A DNA stretch of 64,000 nt from Natrinema versiforme (GTDB lineage: Archaea > Halobacteriota > Halobacteria > Halobacteriales > Natrialbaceae): assembly GCF_005576615.1 (NCBI RefSeq), contig NZ_CP040330.1, forward strand, positions 310,001-374,000, given 5' to 3'. Positions 30,681 through 60,958 of this stretch are shown here, piece by piece. The translations under genes and the position numbers were made by a program. Each line of letters begins with the position of its first letter. The stretch's first letter is position 1. Below the pieces are notes generated by a model that had not been told where the DNA came from, did not search any database, and saw only the letters and a program-made list of their open reading frames with translations.

Positions 30681-31487
30681 CTACAAGTAGTAATTCAACA
30701 GAGTTGCTCGGATATACTCAACTGTCGCGTCATCAACATCAGTATGAGGAGAGCTAATAATCGCTTTGTCCCGATGGAACTCGACAGCACTTCGGCCGTC
30801 TTCGGATTCAAGTAACAAGCTCACATCGAACTGCTCTTTTTTGATCCACTCATCCAAAGTGAGATCATTTTCAATAGGTGAGACGATAAACCGACCATCT
30901 GTTACCGACCGAACCTCTAGTTTATCGGTAACAGAGTTCCGGAGGAATCTAGCGAACAGCATCAAGTCAATAATCGAGTTTCGAAGCTTTCCAAACTCAA
31001 ATCTAAACGTAATATTCACGCCGATACTTCCGATTGAAGAGTCATACTCTGTATCGAATGGACTTCCCTCAGATCCACCCGGAATGAAGTTCAAGGTCAG
31101 CTCGTAGGGATCTTTCTCGTCTTTGTATCTGACTTTGACATCCATTTCATTCCCGTCGTCACTCCATTTTTGTTCAACAATTTGGAAATCACCGTCACTG
31201 CGTTCATCAACCGAATTCAGGATTGTTGCTGCTGTTTCACGTGGTGCGTCGGCCGGCAGATCTGTGTCGAGATAGATGCTGAACTCGTAATCCGCAGTGA
31301 TTTTGTTACGCTTCGTTCTCCAAGACTTACACTTTCGTTTTACTCCAGACCATATCGGCTCAAACGCCTTCTTTTCGAAGAGTGATTGAAGAATATAGTC
31401 AACCGTAGTTGTGACCACTGGGATAATGAGAACAACAAGTGCGCCTTGAATATGGTCGGCGGATAGCAGTGATTCAAGGAGGGGCAT
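30681..31487 (-). CDS. Single-TM protein of the AT-rich two-gene operon, 268 aa
   Basis: Not recognised. One hydrophobic helix at residues ~13-33 (GALVVLIIPVVTTTVDYIL), then a basic patch (KRKCKSWRTKRNK) at ~50-63 that predicts a cytosolic remainder. Two alpha/beta segments follow (about 68-145 and 155-268) with alternating strands (YEFSIYLDT, VNITFRFEFG, SVTDGRFIVSP). Codon use is AT-rich, unlike neighbours. Its ATG overlaps the stop of the preceding gene (TGATG), so it is translationally coupled; an AGAGGA lies just upstream. Possible membrane effector; this is inference from layout only. Confidence 0.72.
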   Translation of the reverse strand: MPLLESLLSADHIQGALVVLIIPVVTTTVDYILQSLFEKKAFEPIWSGVKRKCKSWRTKRNKITADYEFSIYLDTDLPADAPRETAATILNSVDERSDGDFQIVEQKWSDDGNEMDVKVRYKDEKDPYELTLNFIPGGSEGSPFDTEYDSSIGSIGVNITFRFEFGKLRNSIIDLMLFARFLRNSVTDKLEVRSVTDGRFIVSPIENDLTLDEWIKKEQFDVSLLLESEDGRSAVEFHRDKAIISSPHTDVDDATVEYIRATLLNYYL

Positions 31488-32356
31488 CAGTCCTCTGTAT
31501 GGAGCCTAGGTGTTTCTGAGGTGTATGCTGACACCGATGTCTGGATCGTCAGTGAGAGACTTGGAACGATGTGCGATGCAATCATTGAGAGATACATTGA
31601 GAGGGTGATGTTATTGTAGCTTCGAATCAGGCAGTCGTCCGATATCTGGATTGTCTTGCTACTACCATCGAGTTGGGATGTTCCGAACCGTTGGCCATGT
31701 ACGGCTCCTTGGCGTTTCTCGCGTTTATACTCTTCAGATTCACCGAAACCATGACCCATAATATGCTTCTTTTCGATATTGCTGTCCTCGTAGTCTTCTA
31801 CAGCAGTCATAAGATGAGTATCAACGAGACTCTCTGCAATACCCTCAAACTCGGAGTGATTGAGCGTGATTTCATCAACGATAAAACCGAACTCCTCCAG
31901 TGTATTGGACAGGATATTGTATACTCTCCTCATGATTTCTCGACTTGCTAGCATTAGTAGAAATGCTTGGCCACTAACTTCGAAGACCAGGAATTTCGTA
32001 GATTGTTGGTCAAGAATCAATACTTCCTTGTTATCATATTTAACGGTATCTGACTCGTTGTGAACCAGATATCCCATTATTCCGTTTAGTCCTTCCTGAT
32101 GGAATTCGGATACATTTTTGATTGAAGCGATTTGCGCTTCGTTGTCAACCCCTGATCGGAAAACTTCTGGAATGTGAAGATCGTCGCGATCAGCTAGGTC
32201 GTCTTCGTCTAAGTCAACTGACGACCCCTCAAGTTCCTGTTTTAACCATCCGCAGTTGGGTTCCTTCGTTTCAGGTAGACTCAAGTGATACATCCTCCCG
32301 GTGTAGTCGTCTTCTTGGAGAAGCGGGTTTTCAAGCGGGGAGATGTTTTCTGACAC
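31487..32356 (-). CDS. Soluble protein of the AT-rich two-gene operon, 289 aa
   Basis: Not recognised. Acidic N-terminus (DLDEDDLADRDDLHIPEVF near 48-66), then a mixed domain with strands NKEVLILDQ and TKFLVFEVSGQAFLLMLAS near 110-137, a helix EIMRRVYNILSNTLEEFGF near 139-157, and a His/Lys-rich loop (KKHIMGHGFGE) near 200. The C-terminal third (SMYLSMIASHIVPSL) is moderately hydrophobic but not a clear TM. It is the first gene of the operon, with an AT-rich promoter region upstream, and is followed by the TM protein with a 1-nt overlap. Confidence 0.72.
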   Translation of the reverse strand: MSENISPLENPLLQEDDYTGRMYHLSLPETKEPNCGWLKQELEGSSVDLDEDDLADRDDLHIPEVFRSGVDNEAQIASIKNVSEFHQEGLNGIMGYLVHNESDTVKYDNKEVLILDQQSTKFLVFEVSGQAFLLMLASREIMRRVYNILSNTLEEFGFIVDEITLNHSEFEGIAESLVDTHLMTAVEDYEDSNIEKKHIMGHGFGESEEYKREKRQGAVHGQRFGTSQLDGSSKTIQISDDCLIRSYNNITLSMYLSMIASHIVPSLSLTIQTSVSAYTSETPRLHTED

Positions 32357-51841: not shown

Positions 51842-52732
51842 TTACGTAATATCGAAGAAGTCCCCCTCCTCGCGCCCCGTCGTATCCGAGTAGTCCACTT
51901 GATAGGACTCGCCCGAACTGCCGGTCACATCGATGTTCTCTATTCTGATCGTGATTTCGCGTTCCGAGTTCCCTTGTCCCCCGTTGCCTTGGGAACTGTA
52001 CGTGAGCTGTGACGAGTCGGGATCGAACGTCAGTTCTCCATTGTGTTGTGTTTGGACGGTCACGTCTTCGGTAGTGACCGACGAGTAATCCACACCGCCG
52101 CTGCTCTGTGGCCGAGAGACGTTGACGGTCGCTTGGTCGTTGTTACCGAGCGACGAGACATCGAACGAAACGTTTTGCGTCGTGCTGTCAGTCGCTACAT
52201 CGCTCACCGTGAGCCCGGCCGATCCGCTGAACTTCCCCTTCCCACATTGGATCTCGACGGTCGTGTTGAACCTCGGACCAGCGATACTGATACTTTCCCC
52301 CTCGACGCGATCGACTCGAAACGTGACCTCGCGCTCGCCCACGCTCTGATCGTCGGCACATTCGACCGTGACACCGCTCGAACTACCGGTTTCGATCGTG
52401 TCACCGGCGTCCGGCGATGCGACGGCCACGATCGTATCGTCGACACTGTCGTCACCGATCGAAGCGACACTCACGTCTCGCACCTCGAGCGTCTCGCTGA
52501 CGTTGTTAGTGAGCGTTCCGACGGTCAGTGGATCGCTGTTCCCTCGCAACTCGGTTCCGGTCACGTCGCCCTCGCTTTCGATTCCGAGGTATGCGTCCGG
52601 GTCCGCGGCTGTCTGAACGCCGATCCCGCGGTCGGCTTCGAGGGAACTGAAGCCGGCCGACGGTCCGATCACTAATAGCGTGCCGATGATAGTGACTGCG
52701 ACCCCGATGTGTTTAATCGATTGCATACGCAT
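51842..52732 (-). CDS. TasA/camelysin-like secreted protein A, 296 aa
   Basis: A Sec-type hydrophobic signal (HIGVAVTIIGTLLVIGPSAG) is followed by GFSSLEADRGIGVQTAADPDA, of which GFSSLEADRG is the cluster motif. The mature part is beta-rich, with repeated VSV/VTV strands, conserved Cys in VECADDQS and VEIQCGKG, and a Gly-rich C-terminus. It resembles camelysin/TasA-type fibre subunits. Presumed cleaved by the neighbouring SipW-like peptidase. Start at 52732 (MRMQSIK) or 52726. Confidence 0.72.
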   Translation of the reverse strand: MRMQSIKHIGVAVTIIGTLLVIGPSAGFSSLEADRGIGVQTAADPDAYLGIESEGDVTGTELRGNSDPLTVGTLTNNVSETLEVRDVSVASIGDDSVDDTIVAVASPDAGDTIETGSSSGVTVECADDQSVGEREVTFRVDRVEGESISIAGPRFNTTVEIQCGKGKFSGSAGLTVSDVATDSTTQNVSFDVSSLGNNDQATVNVSRPQSSGGVDYSSVTTEDVTVQTQHNGELTFDPDSSQLTYSSQGNGGQGNSEREITIRIENIDVTGSSGESYQVDYSDTTGREEGDFFDIT

Positions 52733-53003
52733 TCGTTTACCCCTCGAATCCCCGGCCCCGGGAAACACCCCACGTCACTGCCCGCAGCCGCTTATCAGCT
52801 CCTTCGAATGCTCCGATAAAAACACGCTCTACCTTCCAGACCGTTCACGACGTTCACGATCGTTTAGTCCCCGTCGCAACCGCTCGAATGACCGTTCGAC
52901 GAATCAATCGCACAGAAGCGTCCGGTCACGCACAGCCGTCGCACGACTCGTACAACCGGTCGCCGCCGTATAGGTTACACCGTTGAGAACGAGCACGACG
53001 ACA

Positions 53004-54110
53004 TCAGTTTGACTCGACATCACCCGTCACATCTGCACCGTCGCTGATCGTCGTACTGCCGCCGGCATCGATATCCCCTTCGACGACTGCACCCCATTTG
53101 ACCACCACGTCGCCGTCGGCGTTAATGTCGCCGCGGATCGTGCTGTCCCCACCGATGACGACGTCACCGCCCGCAGTGATGTCGTCTCCGACCTCGGAGT
53201 TCCAACCGGTTTCGACGTTTCCGTCCGCGGTAATTTTGCCGCCGACCGTACTCGAGTCGCTGATCGTCACGTCACCGCCGGCCGTTATGTCGCCGCCGAC
53301 CTCGGAGTCCCAGCCCGTAGTCACGGACCCATCTGCGTCGATATCACCGCCGACCCGACTCAAGGACCCCGTCGAGACGTCACCGCCAGCCCTCACGTCC
53401 TCGCTGACCTCGGAGTCCCAGCCCGTAGTCACGGTCCCGTCCGCATCGATATTGCCACCGACGGTACTCGAGTCTCCCATCGAGGCATCACCGCCCGTGT
53501 CGACGTCGCCGGTGATCTCGGAGTCCCACCCCGAGGTGACGTCTCCATCACTGCTGACATCACCGTTTCTGACTTCACCGCCGCCGACGGTCGATCCGCC
53601 GGGATTGCCGCCCGGAGGCCCGGACCCACCGGGATTACATTCGTAGGTAAGCGCGCTTTCTACGGTGATTCCCGTCACCGTCACTCCGTCGGCGATCGCT
53701 TCTTCGACGGTGACGGTTACGGTCGTCGTCTCAGGACCCCGCGGACCGCCTCGGCTACTACACGCGACGAGAACTGACCCGGTGACGTTCCGCCCGATAG
53801 TCTCCGGAACGGTCGTCTCGAGGTCGCCCCCGCCGCTCGAGAACGCGACGCCGACCTCGAGAGCGGTGATATCCGACTCGAGGTTGTTCGTGATGACAGC
53901 GACTTCAGACTCGTCGTTTGGCCCGTCGATCGTGCTGTCGCTCGGGACGACGCCGATATTCGCGTTCTCGCCGGACGCCGTCTCCATGCTGACGCCGCGA
54001 TCGGCAGCCAGGGACGTGAACCCGTAGACTGGACCGGCAAGTAGCACCGCTCCGGCGACGATAAATACGGCTCCGAAGACGGTAACGATATTTCCGGACA
54101 CGGTGGTCAC
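53004..54110 (-). CDS. TasA-like secreted protein with bactofilin-like beta-solenoid, 368 aa
   Basis: It starts with GTG. The signal helix (about 8-28) ends in YGFTSLAADRGVSMETASGENA, of which GFTSLAADRG is the cluster motif. Residues ~35-165 form an Ig-like beta domain (AVITNNLESDITALEV; VTVTVEEAIADGVTVTG) with two Cys, then a Gly/Pro hinge (CNPGGSGPPGGNPGG). Residues ~180-365 are repeats of 36 residues, each of two 18-residue turns, e.g. NIDADGTVTTGWDSEVSE and DVRAGGDVSTGSLSRVGG: a right-handed beta-solenoid like bactofilins or polymer-forming proteins. Secreted scaffold or capping subunit is inferred. Confidence 0.8.
   Translation of the reverse strand: MTTVSGNIVTVFGAVFIVAGAVLLAGPVYGFTSLAADRGVSMETASGENANIGVVPSDSTIDGPNDESEVAVITNNLESDITALEVGVAFSSGGGDLETTVPETIGRNVTGSVLVACSSRGGPRGPETTTVTVTVEEAIADGVTVTGITVESALTYECNPGGSGPPGGNPGGSTVGGGEVRNGDVSSDGDVTSGWDSEITGDVDTGGDASMGDSSTVGGNIDADGTVTTGWDSEVSEDVRAGGDVSTGSLSRVGGDIDADGSVTTGWDSEVGGDITAGGDVTISDSSTVGGKITADGNVETGWNSEVGDDITAGGDVVIGGDSTIRGDINADGDVVVKWGAVVEGDIDAGGSTTISDGADVTGDVESN
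53010..53570 (-). repeat. 108-bp (36-residue) in-frame repeats encoding a beta-solenoid
   Basis: Four clear 36-residue units (…DADGTVTTGWDSEV…, …DADGSVTTGWDSEV…, …ADGNVETGWNSEV…, …NADGDVVVKWGAVV…) plus a degenerate first unit, each split into two 18-residue halves with the pattern xIxAxGxVxxGxxSxVxG. Confidence 0.8.
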
Positions 54111-54290
54111 TTATGATGGACGGCCGATAAGACGGCCACGTTGCTGGTCGACGTTTCCAGCAGATCTACTGTCGCTATCGGACGTGCATAGACAAAACAG
54201 TTTCTGAAAGTGATTGTCACAGTCTCGATACTGACTCGCGATATCCGTTGATAAGGTCGTGATCTTCGAGTGTCCGATGCGGTCGTGGAC

Positions 54291-54842
54291 TCACTCCTGA
54301 ACGCAGTCGATCTCTACGTCGCGCTCGAGTTCGACCGTGACATTGCCGTCGCTGGCTTTGACCCAGACCGTGACCGTCCCGGAATCTTCCGTCTGCTGTC
54401 TACTGAAGAGCCCATCTCTCTCTGCTGGGCACTTGAAATCCCCGAGGACAGCATTAATTTCATTCCCATTGTTCCTCGTCTCATCTCTCAGTTGGTCGCC
54501 TCTGATCATATCAGTGTTATCTATACTGATGTCGATCTCTTCAACCGTTAGCTGCTGCGACGATGTGTTATCCGCAAATACGACTATTTCTACGTCGTTA
54601 TATCGGAACCCATCACAAGGGCCAAAAATTATACACAACACTCCACGATCACTGTTAGAACTCTCTAATTCTATCTGCTCGCCGTTCGGATAGTCGAGAC
54701 TGAGAAGTGCAGACCCGTCACTCGCCGTTTCGACCGTGGAACCCCTGTCTGCGGCTGACGAATCGAATGCTCCGCTCGAGGCGGCAAGCGCGATTGCACC
54801 GACGACGACGAGCACGATGCCCAAGTACGTAATCACTCGCAT
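54291..54842 (-). CDS. TasA/camelysin-like secreted protein C, 183 aa
   Basis: Signal helix (YLGIVLVVVGAIALAASSGA) followed by the motif GAFDSSAADRGSTVETASDG, of which GAFDSSAADRG matches the cluster. The mature domain has beta strands around VEIVVFADNTSSQQLTVEEI and Cys residues in LCIIFGPCDGF, FKCPAE and EIDCVQE. Shorter than the two minus-strand paralogues downstream. Exported, presumed substrate of the adjacent peptidase. G+C a little lower than the surroundings. Confidence 0.72.
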   Translation of the reverse strand: MRVITYLGIVLVVVGAIALAASSGAFDSSAADRGSTVETASDGSALLSLDYPNGEQIELESSNSDRGVLCIIFGPCDGFRYNDVEIVVFADNTSSQQLTVEEIDISIDNTDMIRGDQLRDETRNNGNEINAVLGDFKCPAERDGLFSRQQTEDSGTVTVWVKASDGNVTVELERDVEIDCVQE

Positions 54843-54938
54843 ACTGAGTGGGTTTCAGACTGTCCCGCTGCTATTGTCCGTCTCAATTCCTATCGACACA
54901 TCGGTCGGAACACCGGTACCAACCTACGACTGCTGATA

Positions 54939-55472
54939 TCATGGCGGTTTCTCCATGTTCCCCAGTTGCATCCGTTGGTTCTGTATCACGTGGACGACCG
55001 CAGAGACTGCAAACAGGACGAAGACCGCTGTTGCCCACCCGAGTTCGGATATCGGGTTGGTCGGCACTATCTCGAGCCACACGCCGATCAAGACGGTCGA
55101 GCCGACCGCGGCTAACCCCAGATAGTAGGTCGCCCACGGAATCGAGTCCTCTGGGACGACGTCGAGGTAGACGTCCAGTCCGGCCGCCCCGTCGGTGAGT
55201 TCGATCGTTCGGTCGTCGAATTCGATCACGTTGGCCCGCTCGAGCGTGGGCAGATGGGTCTGCTGTAACGACGTGTAGACCCGCTTTCGTTCCGTCGAGG
55301 TTACTCCCCCGACCTCTTTGTCGAGTTCCCACGCTGCGACGTGTTCTGCGAGCGTCCCGAGTTCCACGGGGCCGTCTTCTTGTTTGCAGTAGTGGATTGC
55401 ATACCGTCGTCGGTGGTTACTCAACAGGTCGAAAATCTCCCCGCGATCCGGTCCCCCTGTTCTCGTCCCCAT
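54939..55472 (-). CDS. Membrane-tethered winged-helix regulator (DUF7344-like), 177 aa
   Basis: N-terminal ~95 residues: GEIFDLLSNHRRRYAIHYCK, LGTLAEHVAAWELDK, KRVYTSLQQTHLPTLERANV, IEFDDRTIELTDG, the typical DUF7344 winged helix of haloarchaea. Then two TM helices (about 115-135 and 143-163) and a short cytosolic tail. It is a one-component regulator held at the membrane, placed between the minus- and plus-strand halves of the secretion cluster, so it is the obvious candidate controller. TATA region 55505-55515. Confidence 0.85.
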   Translation of the reverse strand: MGTRTGGPDRGEIFDLLSNHRRRYAIHYCKQEDGPVELGTLAEHVAAWELDKEVGGVTSTERKRVYTSLQQTHLPTLERANVIEFDDRTIELTDGAAGLDVYLDVVPEDSIPWATYYLGLAAVGSTVLIGVWLEIVPTNPISELGWATAVFVLFAVSAVVHVIQNQRMQLGNMEKPP

Positions 55473-55890
55473 CGATCCCCTATTGGCTTGATACTGCTTT
55501 CTATTGATATATAACTCTTATCGCCATATTTTGGTGATGAGTGGCATACAACGGTTCTATTCGACGTTGAGAAACCGAACCCGTTGTCATCGGACTCGAG
55601 TTCTCGTTCGCCTCGGGACTCATGTCCATCGACCCGTCTGCTCGATAGCTGTGATCCGTTGACCCGCGGTTCGTTTCCGCAGGTTGCATGGGAGTGACGT
55701 GAGTCTGACACACACGACAGGCCCCGAAATACCGATCAAGGCCGGCTTGAACGTCGGTATGGCCGACCGATCGGACGTTCTGGTCACTCAATACAAAGGG
55801 GGTGGTGTTCGTGGAGATGAGTAAGGACCGCGTTCCGGGCCGTCGGGGGTACCGACGACTGCCGGCGCGGTTGTACGGAGACCATACACT
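55473..55890. other. Central intergenic of the secretion cluster
   Basis: Holds the TATA-like box of the winged-helix gene (55505-55515, minus) and, at the right edge, a mini-ORF (55817-55894) overlapping the filament gene. The middle 300 bp has no gene; longer frames are Arg/Ser-rich noise. The weak CAATACAAA at 55789-55797 may be the plus-strand promoter. Confidence 0.5.
55505..55515 (-). promoter_or_regulatory. TATA box of the winged-helix regulator
   Basis: TGATATATAAC region (minus strand reads GTTATATATCA) is 33-43 nt upstream of the ATG at 55472, allowing a leader of about a dozen nt. Confidence 0.55.
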
Positions 55891-55894
55891 ATGA
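55817..55894 (+). CDS. Mini-ORF overlapping filament gene 1 by ATGA, 25 aa
   Basis: ATG at 55817 opens 25 codons rich in Arg (KDRVPGRRGYRRLPARLYGD), ending in TGA at 55892-55894, which overlaps the ATG of the downstream gene. If translated, termination would place ribosomes on that start. Peptide function is doubtful. Confidence 0.35.
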   Translation: MSKDRVPGRRGYRRLPARLYGDHTL

Positions 55895-56436
55895 GAATGA
55901 ATCGACGCAACGTGTTAGTCGGATTGGGGACAATCGTCGCAGGTGGCGGAGCCGCTCTCGGGACGGGCGCGTTCAGTAGCGTGGAAGCGAACCGAACGGT
56001 TAGCGTCACGACCTCGGGCGACGCGAATGCGCTGGTCGCGTTCAATATCACCAGTAGTCTGCTCGAGGGATCGGAAGGGTCCGACGACGAGATGATCCAG
56101 TTCGATCTCGAAGACCTCAATATCGGTGCGATCACCCGCTTCGATGGCGGATTCGAGATCACGAACAATAGAGAAACCCAGAGTGATACGATTACCCTCT
56201 CCATCGACGACGGGGATGGCAATTCGATCACGACGACGGACGCTTCGGTAGAAGACGACGGGATGTATTTCGAGTACAGTGACGGCGATCTCACCGATAT
56301 CGATGGGGACGGTGGCAGTGTCACGCTCGATGTCGTGTTCAACCTCGAGAATTCGACCGATACTTCCACAGCGGATGGTAACCTCCCGTCTACTGTTGCG
56401 ATTACGGCAGACGATAGCAGTGGTGGGTCGGCATGA
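55891..56436 (+). CDS. TasA/DUF1102-like fibre subunit 1 with Tat-type signal, 181 aa
   Basis: Signal MNRRNVLVGLGTIVAGGGAA has a twin-Arg followed by a hydrophobic stretch, suggesting Tat export of a folded protein. Then GTGAFSSVEANRTVSV, the cluster motif. The mature part is a small beta domain (ALVAFNITSSL, GGFEITNNRETQSDTITL, VTLDVVFNLENS) ending in Gly/Ser. No Cys. This fits the DUF1102/TasA group of fibre-forming subunits. The next gene starts inside its stop codon (ATGA), so subunits 1 and 2 are coupled. Confidence 0.8.
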   Translation: MRMNRRNVLVGLGTIVAGGGAALGTGAFSSVEANRTVSVTTSGDANALVAFNITSSLLEGSEGSDDEMIQFDLEDLNIGAITRFDGGFEITNNRETQSDTITLSIDDGDGNSITTTDASVEDDGMYFEYSDGDLTDIDGDGGSVTLDVVFNLENSTDTSTADGNLPSTVAITADDSSGGSA

Positions 56437-56927
56437 GATTGAACAGACGCAACGTGATATTCGGCCTGGGAACGGTCGTTGCGGGCGGTGGAGTCGCCTT
56501 CGGTACCGGAGCGTTCAGTCAAGTTGAGGCGGACCGTACGATCACTGTCGATGTCGACGACGATCAAAACGCCTTCGTCAGTATTACGCCGAATGCTAAC
56601 ACTGATCTCGTGACCGTCGACGGCGACACTGGCCAGATAATGATCCAGTGGAACGCGGACGATTTCGGCGGTAGCGGTGCACATCAGAACGCGACGATCA
56701 TTATCGACGAAGCGATCGACTTCGCACATAACGGCGAGAGCGGGACAACCTACGAAGTGAGTATGGCTGATGACAATCTATCCGGGGACGCGAACATCGC
56801 GTTCACCAACGTTACTGAACCGATCGTCTTAGCGGAGGGGGACTCTACAACGGCCGGTCTGGAAATCACTACGTCTGACTCGAGCATCGAAAATGAGATG
56901 GTCACGTTAGAGATAACGGAACAGTAA
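56433..56927 (+). CDS. TasA/DUF1102-like fibre subunit 2 with Tat-type signal, 164 aa
   Basis: Close relative of the preceding protein: LNRRNVIFGLGTVVAGGGVA, then GTGAFSQVEADRTITVDVDD. The beta domain follows with strands NAFVSITPNANT, NATIIIDEAIDFAH and ENEMVTLEITEQ at the very end. The two subunits probably form a heteropolymer or major/minor pair. Starts within the stop of subunit 1 (ATGA). A stem-loop lies 25 bp after its stop. Confidence 0.8.
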   Translation: MRLNRRNVIFGLGTVVAGGGVAFGTGAFSQVEADRTITVDVDDDQNAFVSITPNANTDLVTVDGDTGQIMIQWNADDFGGSGAHQNATIIIDEAIDFAHNGESGTTYEVSMADDNLSGDANIAFTNVTEPIVLAEGDSTTAGLEITTSDSSIENEMVTLEITEQ

Positions 56928-56951
56928 GCGCTTGTAGTCTCCCGCATCGGC

Positions 56952-56976
56952 CGTACCAATCGTCTGTATTGGTACG
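56952..56976 (+). terminator. Stem-loop after the fibre-subunit genes
   Basis: CGTACCAAT (56952-56960) pairs with ATTGGTACG (56968-56976) around a 7-nt loop, located 25 bp after the subunit-2 stop and before the CARDB gene. It could stabilise the fibre mRNA or attenuate read-through; no T-run follows. Confidence 0.5.
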
Positions 56977-57020
56977 AACCGGGCTCCCGAAACCCGAGTC
57001 GACAGTACACACGATCCACC

Positions 57021-58151
57021 ATGGTCTCAGCACGGATTCTGTTCGCTGCAGCCGCGCTTTGCTTTCTCTTCGCATTTGCAGCCCCGACTATGGCGCTTGC
57101 GATAGGCGAAGATTCGGCGAGCGACGACGTCGTTTTCGAGCCGGTTGACGAACGATACGCGACGATCGAAAACGGCAACCTCACGCTCGACATCGGCGTG
57201 TACGGCGATGCGATGACAACTATCGAAGACGTGTTCACGATTCGCATCGGGGAGGACGCTGACGACATCGGGGCGATTTGGATCGATCACGATGTCGACG
57301 GTGTGACCTTTTATGCCGGTGGCTCTCCGATCACCGACGAGTCGAGACTCGAGCCGGCACCCGGTGAAACCGTCACCGTGGGCGTGTCGATTAATACCCA
57401 TATCGCACCCACGGGTACGAAAACGTTCACCGTGCACGCTATCTCCGAAGACGAGACCGAGAACCGGAACGATGTCACCTCCTCGCCTCCGGGTGGAGTC
57501 ACTGTCGAGTCCCTCTCGGTCGACCCGCATTCGCTCGAGACCGGCCAGACGGTAACGGTGAACGCGACCTACCGAAACTTCGGCGAAACTGAGACGATAA
57601 CGCCGCGCCTGACCGTCGACGGGACCGTCGTCGACCAGCGGTCGATCGACCTCGAGCCGGGAGAGACGGAGACGGTCAGTTTCGAGCGGCGGATGGACTG
57701 GCCCGGGGCGTACGAGGTCGGAATCGCGGGCGTCGGCACCGAATCGGTGACCGTCGAGGGGCCGCCGATCGATGTCGTCGACGCGACTATCGACGACGCG
57801 GAACTCACGGCCGGCGAGTCGACCGCGGTTCGGGCGACGGTCAGGAACCCCACAAATACGGCGGTTGATCGCACGCTCGAGGTCGCGGTCGACGGGACCG
57901 TCGTCGATAGCCGAGCCGTCACGATTCCGGCGAACGGCGAGCGGACGGTCGTCTTCGAACGGCGGTTCGACGAGGTAGGGACGTACGAAATCGGAGTCAG
58001 CGGCGTCGGTGCGGGGACGGTTACTGTCTCCGAGCCGGAGACGTTCTCGATCCGGAACCGGGAGCTCTCGGCGGCGATCGCGCCACCGGCAACGGCGGGG
58101 CTGTTGTTCCTCGCGATGGCTGCGAACCGTCGGTGGGCGTTCGTTCAGTAA
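57021..58151 (+). CDS. CARDB-domain cell-surface protein, 376 aa
   Basis: Sec signal helix (ILFAAAALCFLFAFAAPTMA). Residues ~30-160 form an unassigned beta domain like that of DUF-type archaeal surface proteins (FTIRIGEDADDIGAIWIDHD). Two CARDB Ig-like domains follow: ~165-250 (SVDPHSLETGQTVTVNATYR) and ~255-340 (ATIDDAELTAGESTAVRATV), then a C-terminal TM helix (AAIAPPATAGLLFLAMAA) and a short basic end. A type I surface-anchored protein, plausible anchor or minor component of the adjacent fibre. Confidence 0.8.
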   Translation: MVSARILFAAAALCFLFAFAAPTMALAIGEDSASDDVVFEPVDERYATIENGNLTLDIGVYGDAMTTIEDVFTIRIGEDADDIGAIWIDHDVDGVTFYAGGSPITDESRLEPAPGETVTVGVSINTHIAPTGTKTFTVHAISEDETENRNDVTSSPPGGVTVESLSVDPHSLETGQTVTVNATYRNFGETETITPRLTVDGTVVDQRSIDLEPGETETVSFERRMDWPGAYEVGIAGVGTESVTVEGPPIDVVDATIDDAELTAGESTAVRATVRNPTNTAVDRTLEVAVDGTVVDSRAVTIPANGERTVVFERRFDEVGTYEIGVSGVGAGTVTVSEPETFSIRNRELSAAIAPPATAGLLFLAMAANRRWAFVQ

Positions 58152-58451
58152 CGCCCCGACTCGCTACGACTCTGTGTTGACCGCTGAGATGGCGGTGTGT
58201 GCCCAATCCGACGAGTGCGCTGTTTCTCCCTCGCGCGCTACTGCGGTGGGTAAGTGAAACGGCGCTCGCCCGCATCCCATCTCAGACCGTTTCTCCAGTG
58301 TGGTCTCGGGACGAGCGTTTCCATTCTCCCGTTTCGCGTCGCGAAATCGCGACGGTGCTCCGCCGTCGTCACTCTCGCGGGCTTTATACTACAGCAGAGA
58401 TATACTCAGGTCGAACCGTCACCCAACTATGAATATCCTCGTCACTACTCG
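58152..58451. other. Intergenic upstream of the signal peptidase
   Basis: GC-rich for 200 bp without a credible gene, then two TATA-like words (TTTATAC at 58383-58389 and GATATACT at 58399-58406) and an 8-codon mini-ORF at 58429. Confidence 0.5.
58399..58406 (+). promoter_or_regulatory. TATA box placed for the mini-ORF upstream of the signal peptidase
   Basis: GATATACT lies 23-30 nt upstream of the ATG at 58429, not of the peptidase ATG at 58452, so a leaderless transcript would start on the mini-ORF. Confidence 0.55.
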
Positions 58452-58455
58452 ATGA
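58429..58455 (+). CDS. Mini-ORF overlapping the signal-peptidase gene by ATGA, 8 aa
   Basis: Encodes MNILVTTR, and its TGA (58453-58455) overlaps the peptidase ATG (58452-58454). The TATA box is spaced for this ATG. It would act as a leader cistron for termination-reinitiation. Confidence 0.4.
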   Translation: MNILVTTR

Positions 58456-59633
58456 CCGCCGCCACGCTCGCTAAGCGGGGAGTCGGGCTCGCAATCGCGC
58501 TGGTCGTCGTCCTCCTGCTGGTCGGCCAACTCCTCGGGCAGCCGATCCTGCTGGGCTACGTCGCGACCGGCAGCATGGAGCCGACGATGGACGCCGGCGA
58601 CGGGTTCGTCGCGATACCCAGCATCGCCGCGGGCGATGTCGAGGAAGGCGACGTGGTCGTCTATCAGGCCAGAGATCTCCACGACGGCGGGCTGACGACC
58701 CACCGCGTCGTCGGCGAGACGGAGGAGGGGTACGTCACGAAGGGTGACGCGAACCCGTTTACCGATCAGGACGGCGGCGAACCTCACGTCACCGAGGGCC
58801 AGATCGTCGCCGAGGTCTTGCAGGGACACGGCACCGTCGTCACCGTTCCGTACCTCGGGAGCGCGATCATGGGTGTGCAGGGACTCGCGGAGCGGGCCTA
58901 CGGGACGGTCGCGCCGATACTCGGGTTGACGACGACCGCGTCCTCGAACGGCCTCGGCTCCATGCTCGTCGCGGCCGGCGTCGCCATGCTCGGCTTCGGC
59001 ACGCTGCTCGAGCGACTCGGGCCGTCTCGGCGCGAGGTGACGCGCTCGCGGTCGCGCGAGAACGTCATCGCGTTCTGGACCGCGCTCGGCCTCGTGTTGT
59101 TCGTGTTCGTCACGTTCGCGACCGCGGCGATGGTCGTCCCGTCGGGCACCACCGAGTACGAACTCGTCAGTACCGAGACCCCCGGCGACGACCCACAGAT
59201 CGTCGCGCCCGGTGGGACGACGGAACTCTCTCGCACCGTCGACAACGCCGGCTACCTGCCGGTGGTGGTCGTCCACGAGGCGGAGAGCGGGGGGATCAGC
59301 ACCGATCCCTCACAGCAGACGATCGGGATACGCGACAGCGGCGAGACGACGGTGACGCTGTCGACCCCCGAGGAGACGGGCGAGTACACGCGCCACCTCG
59401 GCGAGTACCGGTATCTCGCCGTGTTACCGCCGTCAGTGCTGGGCTGGCTTCACACTCTACACCCGCTCGCCGCCATCGCGGCGGTAAACGGCGTCATCGT
59501 CGGGGTATCCGTCGCAATCGTGCTCGTGATCTTCGGCAGCGGCGACATCCGCTACCGGTCCGCGGGCGATCACGTCTCGCTCTCGACTCGGCTCGAGCGG
59601 AAACTCCGGAAGTGGCTCCGGAATCGAGAGTAG
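58452..59633 (+). CDS. SipW/ER-type signal peptidase I with C-terminal exported beta domain, 393 aa
   Basis: Membrane serine peptidase. TM1 (about 9-29), catalytic Ser in VATGSMEPTMDAGD near residue 40, the His that replaces the bacterial Lys in LTTHRVVGE near 80, and the Asp-bearing KGDANPFTDQDG near 95: the Ser-His ER/SipW type. After this ~140-residue core come TM helices near 175-195 and 208-232, an exported beta domain (about 235-320; VAPGGTTELSRTVDNAGYLP), a last TM (about 335-360) and a basic tail. The extra domain is absent from ordinary peptidases. Predicted to cleave the neighbouring fibre precursors. Confidence 0.88.
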   Translation: MTAATLAKRGVGLAIALVVVLLLVGQLLGQPILLGYVATGSMEPTMDAGDGFVAIPSIAAGDVEEGDVVVYQARDLHDGGLTTHRVVGETEEGYVTKGDANPFTDQDGGEPHVTEGQIVAEVLQGHGTVVTVPYLGSAIMGVQGLAERAYGTVAPILGLTTTASSNGLGSMLVAAGVAMLGFGTLLERLGPSRREVTRSRSRENVIAFWTALGLVLFVFVTFATAAMVVPSGTTEYELVSTETPGDDPQIVAPGGTTELSRTVDNAGYLPVVVVHEAESGGISTDPSQQTIGIRDSGETTVTLSTPEETGEYTRHLGEYRYLAVLPPSVLGWLHTLHPLAAIAAVNGVIVGVSVAIVLVIFGSGDIRYRSAGDHVSLSTRLERKLRKWLRNRE

Positions 59634-59652
59634 CTCCTCGGGGCCACTATCC

Positions 59653-59658
59653 TTATAG
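59653..59658 (+). promoter_or_regulatory. TATA box placed for the mini-ORF upstream of the DUF5305 gene
   Basis: TTATAG is 24-29 nt upstream of the ATG at 59682, whereas the DUF5305 ATG is at 59774. Confidence 0.5.
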
Positions 59659-59681
59659 TGGTCTATTTCTTTCATTTACGC

Positions 59682-59777
59682 ATGCAGTATCCCGATGACC
59701 GACCAGTTCGGAAACGGACGGGTCGGCCAGCGGGCGCGTTCGGACGGAGTGGCTGGGGATCGGGGGACGACGGATGA
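59682..59777 (+). CDS. Mini-ORF overlapping the DUF5305 gene by ATGA, 31 aa
   Basis: Starts MQYPDDRPVRKRTGRPAGAF and ends Gly/Asp-rich; its TGA (59775-59777) overlaps the DUF5305 ATG (59774-59776). Basic and Gly-rich, so a coupling leader rather than a functional protein is more likely. Confidence 0.4.
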   Translation: MQYPDDRPVRKRTGRPAGAFGRSGWGSGDDG

Positions 59778-60958
59778 TCGACAACCCGCGACTCGAGTTG
59801 TTGCTCGTCAAACAGGGGCGGGCGATCGCTATCGCGCTGATCGTTATCGGTGCCCTCGCGATCGTCGCGACCGGGTGGGCCGTCGCGAACCCGGAGACGA
59901 CGACCTCACCCCAGTTCGACGAGGAACGCGTCGCGACTGACGCACAGACGAGCGCGCTGGTCTCCGAGAACGGCACGCTCTGGACCGAAGGCGACCGCCT
60001 CACGGACAGTTCGGTCTACGTGTTGAACACCTCGCCGGAGCTCACGGTCGAGCCGGAGACGACGCTGCGAAACGAGACCGGCGGCGTCCCGGTCGAGGAT
60101 GGGGACGTCACCCACGAATTGCGGCTTCGATTCGAGGCGATCCGCGACGGCGATTCGTTCTGGAACGAGTCCCATCGAGTGCTCCGCGACTCGCCGTCGG
60201 TCGAGAACGGGGTCGCCACGTCGGAGACGCCGATCGATATGGAGTCCTATCGCGAGCGACAGCGCCAACTCGAGCGGGAAGTCAGCGGTATCGGCTCGGT
60301 CGAACTCACGATGGAACTGCGCGTCGAGTACGACACGGGCCACCATCGTGGCACGTTCACGACCGAGACGCCGGTGGTGATCACGGACGACGCCTACTGG
60401 CTGGAGGGGTCGCTGTCGGACTCGGCCGCCCACAGCCACCGGAGCGGCACGGAGCGGACGACCGAGTCCCGGAGTCCGGCGCTCATCGGTGGGCTCTCGG
60501 TGCTCGGGACGCTCTCGCTCGCCGGTGGGGCGATCGTCGCCCGCCGGTCGCCGACGGACCTCGAGGCCGCCCGCCGCGCGGTCCACGAACAGCGGTACGC
60601 CGAGTGGATCTCGCGGGGCTCGATCCCGATGTGGATCGGCGACTACCACGTCTCGCTCGATACCCTCGAGGACGTGGTCGATGTCGCGATCGACACCAAC
60701 GAGCGCGTCGTCCACGACGAGCAGCGGGGGCTGTTCGCGGTCGTCAACGACGGCGTCGTCTACTACTACAGCGACCGCGGCCTCTGGGAGGAGACCGCGT
60801 GGCCGGAGATGGATCTCGAGGAACAGCCGGCCGTCATCGACGGCGACAGGGAGATGTCGGTCGAGGAAATCGCGGAACTCGACCCGAGCGACGAGTTCGC
60901 GTCCCCCGACGATGCGGACGGGTTCGAAGACGACGAGGACGTCTGGAACCAACTGTAG
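59774..60958 (+). CDS. DUF5305 membrane protein, 394 aa
   Basis: TM helix at ~17-38 (RAIAIALIVIGALAIVATGW), an exported beta-rich domain (about 45-230; LYVLN-type strands such as SVYVLNTSPELTVEPETTL and VELTMELRVEYDTGHHRG), a second TM at ~240-260 (LIGGLSVLGTLSLAGGAIVA), and a cytosolic acidic tail (about 270-394) with VVYYYSDRGLWEE. DUF5305 genes commonly sit beside archaeal SipW-like peptidases. Probably an accessory for export or assembly of the fibre proteins. Last gene of the cluster. Confidence 0.82.
   Translation: MIDNPRLELLLVKQGRAIAIALIVIGALAIVATGWAVANPETTTSPQFDEERVATDAQTSALVSENGTLWTEGDRLTDSSVYVLNTSPELTVEPETTLRNETGGVPVEDGDVTHELRLRFEAIRDGDSFWNESHRVLRDSPSVENGVATSETPIDMESYRERQRQLEREVSGIGSVELTMELRVEYDTGHHRGTFTTETPVVITDDAYWLEGSLSDSAAHSHRSGTERTTESRSPALIGGLSVLGTLSLAGGAIVARRSPTDLEAARRAVHEQRYAEWISRGSIPMWIGDYHVSLDTLEDVVDVAIDTNERVVHDEQRGLFAVVNDGVVYYYSDRGLWEETAWPEMDLEEQPAVIDGDREMSVEEIAELDPSDEFASPDDADGFEDDEDVWNQL

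Follow-up and report, generated by a model that had tools for sequence, protein, structure and literature searches.

A 64,000-nucleotide stretch of the haloarchaeon Natrinema versiforme (NCBI RefSeq assembly GCF_005576615.1, contig NZ_CP040330.1, positions 310,001 to 374,000; hereafter, the window) carries, at window positions 51842 to 60958, an unannotated locus which is very probably the Tat-fimbriae (Tafi; Tat, twin-arginine translocation) pilus locus of this Natrinema species. The assignment follows from directly observed synteny and gene content, homology to a pilus subunit of solved structure (PDB 9P0A, to which the same-position protein of Natrinema gari is identical), a motif common to five secreted proteins, Tat signals, and TatC genes, together with matches to the Taf models, the presence of the canonical parts, and their co-occurrence among relatives. 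The Tafi system is already known (Galeva et al. 2025, iScience 28:111793, as cited in PMC12687288), and this locus adds a member. Placing it in a pilus family recognised only recently connects it with a solved structure and displays how the system varies: pilin-type subunits come as a pair, TafC-like proteins lack Tat signals, and C-terminal domains are swapped. A sequence-only reading of the same DNA had proposed an extracellular fibre locus of the TasA/camelysin type. The fibre proposal is strongly supported, since the protein encoded at the same position in a sister species is the subunit in the solved Tafi pilus structure; the TasA/camelysin label is without sequence support, and the nearest named system is Tat-fimbriae.

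Homology to a solved Tafi pilus subunit

We built a profile from 43 mature pilin-type proteins of named relatives and searched it against PDB sequences. This profile matched chain 9p0a_C at an E value of 4.8e-22, and no other PDB match fell below E 0.3. Entry 9P0A bears the title "Structure of Natrinema sp. J7-2 Tafi pilus," and its chain C corresponds to the product of an N. gari gene (locus L146), with 100% identity over 163 residues; this gene sits just upstream of genes for a CARDB protein, the peptidase, and DUF5305. Read from its second Met, the N. gari pilin frame encodes 215 amino acids with an F at residue 28. The 188 residues resolved in 9p0a are as expected for residues 28 to 215, so that the mature end of the N. 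gari pilin would lie at F28, exactly where the G-A-F motif described below is divided between A and F. Compared with this 9P0A-identical protein, the pilin-type protein encoded at 55891 (genes and their products are designated here by first window position; Table 1) is identical at 55 of 139 aligned residues and the protein encoded at 56433 at 30 of 120. The mature 56433 protein alone had no match among PDB sequences by phmmer; 9P0A was reached by the family profile only.

Some results weigh against this identification. No window protein reaches a curated NCBIfam Taf cut-off, the best scores being 95 of 155 bits for TafE, 55 of 190 for TafA, and 36 of 410 for TafC, and the 56433 structure model matches 9p0a_C only moderately well (Z 7.4), level with its match to an unrelated entry (Z 6.8). 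The identical counterpart of the 9P0A pilin in N. gari likewise falls below the TafE cut-off (77 of 155 bits), which indicates that the Taf cut-offs are tuned to other haloarchaea; they are annotation thresholds, not a family-defining trait. NCBIfam calls TafE an adapter, and in Natrinema the product of the TafE position is the subunit of the solved pilus. TafA exceeds its cut-off in loci of 18 of the 293 genomes of the order; in the syntenic locus of two Natrinema genomes (G069 and G062) it scores 212 and 176 bits, above or near the cut-off. A TafE-type gene is present in 111 of 125 surveyed genomes of the family. Outside the haloarchaea, the TafC model has matches below cut-off in the control genome of Methanosarcina acetivorans.

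9p0a_C was the top fold match of the 56433 model, with the alignment starting at residue 19, and the first six residues of the model are of low confidence; both features would fit an N-terminal donor strand as in TasA. The archaeal bundling pilus 7UEG aligned to the same model with Z 6.1 and a root mean square deviation of 3.5 over 110 residues, a Z value such as a common arrangement may reach. The fold search returned FimA and bundling pili with weak E values, and TasA was not among the matches listed. Judged from this model, a likeness to TasA-type fibres is plausible, though the scores fall short of proof.

The 53004 model (predicted local distance difference test score, 90) has an immunoglobulin (Ig)-like domain and a solenoid built of 36-residue repeats, which are encoded by 108-bp tandem repeats. 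Bactofilin (PF04519) matches the C-terminal half of this protein at 2.4e-09 (37.7 bits; gathering score, 27.9 bits), and Natrinema mahii (L148) encodes a protein 74% identical to it. In a fold search the Ig-like domain resembled pilus chaperones, and the beta-solenoid the secretion domain of HxuA (Z 15.8); we took these as shared folds and rejected them as indications of function.

Proposed export, processing, and assembly of the secreted proteins

All five secreted proteins carry the motif [AG]-F-x-[SQ]-x-x-A-[DN]-R straight after a hydrophobic stretch, much as the sequence-only reading had described it, although 56433 has Q rather than S at position 4. Among the 65 called genes of the window, exactly these five have the motif at that N-terminal position, while shuffled N termini lead one to expect 0.13. 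The TafC-like and pilin families align over their first 29 mature residues only (hhalign, E 9e-08). The earlier description of the five as small secreted beta-domain proteins stood in part: 53004 is more than that, its C-terminal half being a bactofilin-like solenoid, and the Tat signals of 55891 and 56433 had been overlooked. These two proteins have a twin-arginine (RR) signal of the form NRRN, whereas 51842, 53004, and 54291 lack one. Among relatives, RR is found in 62 of 65 pilin-type proteins having the motif but in just 6 of 45 TafC-like proteins of Natrialbaceae-type loci. Canonical TafC has both a LamG domain and RR. From these sequences, TafC-like proteins thus appear to be exported by different routes in different lineages. 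In Natrarchaeobius chitinivorans (L154 and L158), TafC-like genes with RR lie on the opposite strand, a switch of route and orientation inside the family. The N. versiforme genome has three matches to TatC.

The peptidase encoded at 58452 scores 61.9 bits against TIGR02228 (cut-off, 51.85). Its earlier designation as an endoplasmic reticulum (ER)/SipW-type enzyme holds as far as the archaeal/ER type and the Ser-His pair are concerned, but the SipW model NF046067 yields 39.4 of 190 bits. Ser41, His84, Asp99, and Asp105 are invariant in 15 relatives, and most genomes of the genus encode the protein at 75 to 91% identity. It is the sole TIGR02228 match above cut-off in the genome, which has two weaker ones, and may therefore have further substrates.

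We propose that 55891 and 56433 would be exported via Tat as folded pilin-type subunits and that the TafC-like proteins 51842, 53004, and 54291 are probably exported via the general secretory (Sec) route. The linked ER-type peptidase, with its Ser-His pair, would cleave all five just before F in G-A-F-S-S-V-E-A-D-R and free an N-terminal strand common to both protein classes. This strand would probably insert into the next subunit, a strand exchange as in TasA and chaperone-usher pili, by which the pilus would polymerise. The main pilus subunit is most likely 55891; the TafC-like proteins, whose C-terminal domains are exchangeable (a solenoid here, LamG in canonical TafC), probably decorate the pilus or close its tip, serving as a cap or adhesin. 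At the base, its anchoring or assembly is probably the task of two membrane proteins, the CARDB/TafF-like one and DUF5305.

The secreted proteins could instead be separate cell-wall or adhesion proteins that form no pilus and have only an export and processing signal in common. TafC-like genes do vary in their C-terminal domains (solenoid, LamG) and differ in number between genomes, as such a reading would have it. We nevertheless consider it quite improbable: the pilin that N. gari encodes at the same position is the subunit in a solved pilus structure, and the common N-terminal segment runs 29 residues past the cleavage site, beyond the needs of a processing signal.

A TasA/camelysin fibre locus proper would comprise Sec-exported TasA homologues, cut by SipW and forming a biofilm-matrix fibre, either transferred from Bacillus or common with it. 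TasA is cut by the ER-type SipW at TWA-AFND, with F at P2', and bacterial LepB handles F shortly after the cut poorly (PMC10269814); the predicted cleavage site here is of the same type, and the peptidase is of the same kind. F29 and I32 of mature TasA, in its N-terminal donor strand, match the F-x-x-V spacing of this locus, and the Pyrobaculum bundling pilus, which has been described as TasA-like (PMC9674648), is among our fold matches (Z 6.1). Set against these resemblances are the Tat signals on the pilin-type subunits, the SipW score given above, and the outcome of the profile search: Pfam searches relaxed to E=1 gave no camelysin or DUF1102 hit for any of the five proteins, and camelysin/TasA (PF12389) is absent from the whole genome, although it was detected in the Bacillus subtilis control. 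We therefore rejected camelysin/TasA and DUF1102 membership by sequence, and we give a TasA/camelysin fibre locus proper only a very slim chance.

Putative promoter and leader hairpin of the pilin gene

The part of this locus that appears to be unreported is a candidate regulatory module in the promoter and leader of the pilin gene. The DNA upstream of this gene is conserved over at most about 105 bp in most loci, mostly at 70 to 84% identity, and contains a palindrome, TTCARG-N5-CTTGAA, and a AATACAAAG box. At distinct pilin sites the distance from CTTGAA to the box is 16-17, 37-38, 48, 57-58, 69, or 100-102 bp, and these distances fit a 10.5-bp lattice (vector length, 0.94). Most sites have inherited the 38-bp class from common ancestors, and it is therefore the six spacing classes that count, rather than 57 sites taken as independent. 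Palindrome and box are found in combination at a single place in the 4.67-Mb genome and nowhere in the reversed control; the palindrome by itself is not striking within the window.

A 15-bp hairpin follows the box. Across 16 Natrinema-type sequences, 94% of its cells are paired, compared with 26 to 59% when the structure is slid. A covariance model trained on these 16 hairpins found 20 matches in 1.07 Mb, all at pilin leaders and 19 of them outside the training set, to which the window belonged; a sequence-only control model found 12, one of them away from pilin leaders. Two-sided changes occur in 9 of the 15 pairs, and covariation, in an alignment fitted to the structure, is 0.261 versus 0.144 ± 0.018 when shuffled and at most 0.068 when slid. 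Folded as a single sequence, the window hairpin is moderately stable only (z −1.54; mean of −1.1 over 50 leaders). RNAalifold found no structure in a plain MAFFT alignment of the leaders because the length of the hairpin varies, an obstacle that the covariance model overcame. The hairpin occurs in many Natrialbaceae taf loci and has no match in Rfam. We dropped the leader region as a short-peptide gene, since from species to species neither the length nor the frame of the stretch from box to start codon is kept. If transcription starts about 25 nucleotides past the box, the hairpin lies near the 5' end of the mRNA, which suggests that it protects the pilin transcript.

Our confidence is evenly divided on whether the Natrialbaceae Tafi pilin gene is governed by a dedicated cis-module, unreported as far as we searched. 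In such a module the palindrome would lie on one DNA face relative to the AATACAAAG box, at spacings that differ among species by whole helical turns, and would probably be bound by the divergently encoded DUF7344 protein, while the hairpin near the mRNA start would protect or tune the transcript. Promoter and hairpin, if functional, would offer a first handle on the timing of pilus production in haloarchaea, as well as a candidate membrane-bound regulator.

Gene content, relatives, and known systems

All genes listed in the sequence-only reading were found in place, and Pfam bore out its DUF5305, CARDB, and membrane-bound winged-helix (DUF7344) calls (Table 1).

Table 1. Features of the N. 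versiforme Tafi locus, in window coordinates. Numbers after model names are E values; RR, twin-arginine signal; TM, transmembrane.
Feature	Position	Strand	Evidence and remarks
TafC-like secreted protein 1	51842..52732	-	no RR; motif AGF-SSLEADR; TafC 4.8e-07, below cut-off
TafC-like secreted protein 2	53004..54110	-	Ig-like domain and ~195-residue bactofilin-like beta-solenoid; TafC 5e-09
TafC-like secreted protein 3	54291..54842	-	no RR; motif GAF-DSSAADR; TafC 1.5e-05, TafE 3.3e-04
Membrane-anchored winged-helix protein (DUF7344), candidate regulator	54939..55472	-	PF24035 1.7e-29; TM segments
Palindrome ATCAAG-GCCGG-CTTGAA, candidate operator	55735..55751	+	consensus TTCARG-N5-CTTGAA
AATACAAAG box, TATA-like	55790..55798	+	38 bp past palindrome
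5'-leader hairpin of pilin mRNA	55826..55872	+	folding, covariance model, pair counts, sequence-only control
Tat-signal pilin, closest counterpart of 9P0A Tafi pilin	55891..56436	+	TafE 3.3e-27
Second Tat-signal TafA/TafE-like subunit	56433..56927	+	TafE 1.7e-18, TafA 9.5e-15; 4-base overlap with 55891 gene
TafF-position surface protein	57021..58151	+	TafF-like N-domain, CARDB repeats (PF07705, 1e-11), C-terminal TM segment
Archaeal/ER-type signal peptidase	58452..59633	+	TIGR02228 above cut-off; long C-terminal membrane extension
DUF5305 membrane protein	59774..60958	+	PF17231 1.1e-47

We counted gene content among relatives over 36 full-length named loci. The peptidase, pilin, and DUF5305 are each present in all 36, TafC-like proteins and the winged helix each in 35, and the CARDB protein in 32; 30 loci have all core genes together. 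Syntenic relatives of the 51842 protein are 57 to 59% identical to it. A DUF7289 protein (~900 to 1,100 amino acids, with a type IV pilin N terminus) lies inside 15 of the 36 named taf loci (e.g., L070, 7808-10882) and is not found in the window. Natrinema-group genomes also carry paralogous second loci of peptidase, winged helix, and DUF5305 (L088, L090, L091, and L094; peptidase identity, 42 to 49%), some with TafE-like genes; going by these, several species may make two or more kinds of Taf-like filament.

The secreted and regulator genes of the locus (51842-58151) have a third-position guanine-plus-cytosine (GC) content of 0.59 to 0.77, compared with a median of 0.86 in the rest of the window, as if they had evolved fast or been imported. 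Elsewhere in the window, positions 30681-32356 have a GC content of about 0.49 versus 0.65 and hold two overlapping open reading frames (268 and 289 amino acids) with no match in Pfam or PADLOC.

Of the known systems, B. subtilis tapA-sipW-tasA resembles the window in that an ER-type peptidase is linked with fibre subunits whose cleavage site is similar, and TasA has an N-terminal donor strand (PMC9674648, PMC10269814); sequence homology is undetectable, and the pilin-type subunits of the window have Tat signals. Archaeal bundling pili (7UEG) have a beta-sandwich subunit of similar fold, with no sequence match found.

The canonical taf locus, like the window, comprises TafA/TafE-type Tat-signal subunits, TafC, DUF7344, an ER-type peptidase, a TafF-like protein, and DUF5305. 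Its order in L120, one of the loci with TafA above cut-off, is peptidase, TafC, DUF7344 winged helix (beside TafA), TafA, TafE, TafF-like, and DUF5305, whereas the window has these parts in a different order. The alphabet of the gene names fits the L120 order, so that the winged helix and the peptidase are probably TafB and TafD. Unlike canonical TafC, with RR and LamG, the three TafC-like proteins of the window lack RR, and one has a bactofilin-like solenoid. In place of canonical TafF, the window encodes a CARDB protein whose N-domain is TafF-like (hhalign against the TafF set: probability 96.5, E 8.8e-10, 139 columns). The N. gari locus that encodes the 9P0A-identical pilin has a single gene each of the pilin type and the TafC-like type, plus a 902-amino-acid DUF7289 gene, while in the window pilin-type genes number two and TafC-like genes three, and a DUF7289 gene is absent. 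The Tafi pilus of Natrinema sp. J7-2 (9P0A) and the window locus agree in genus, in chromosomal place, and in gene order around the pilin.

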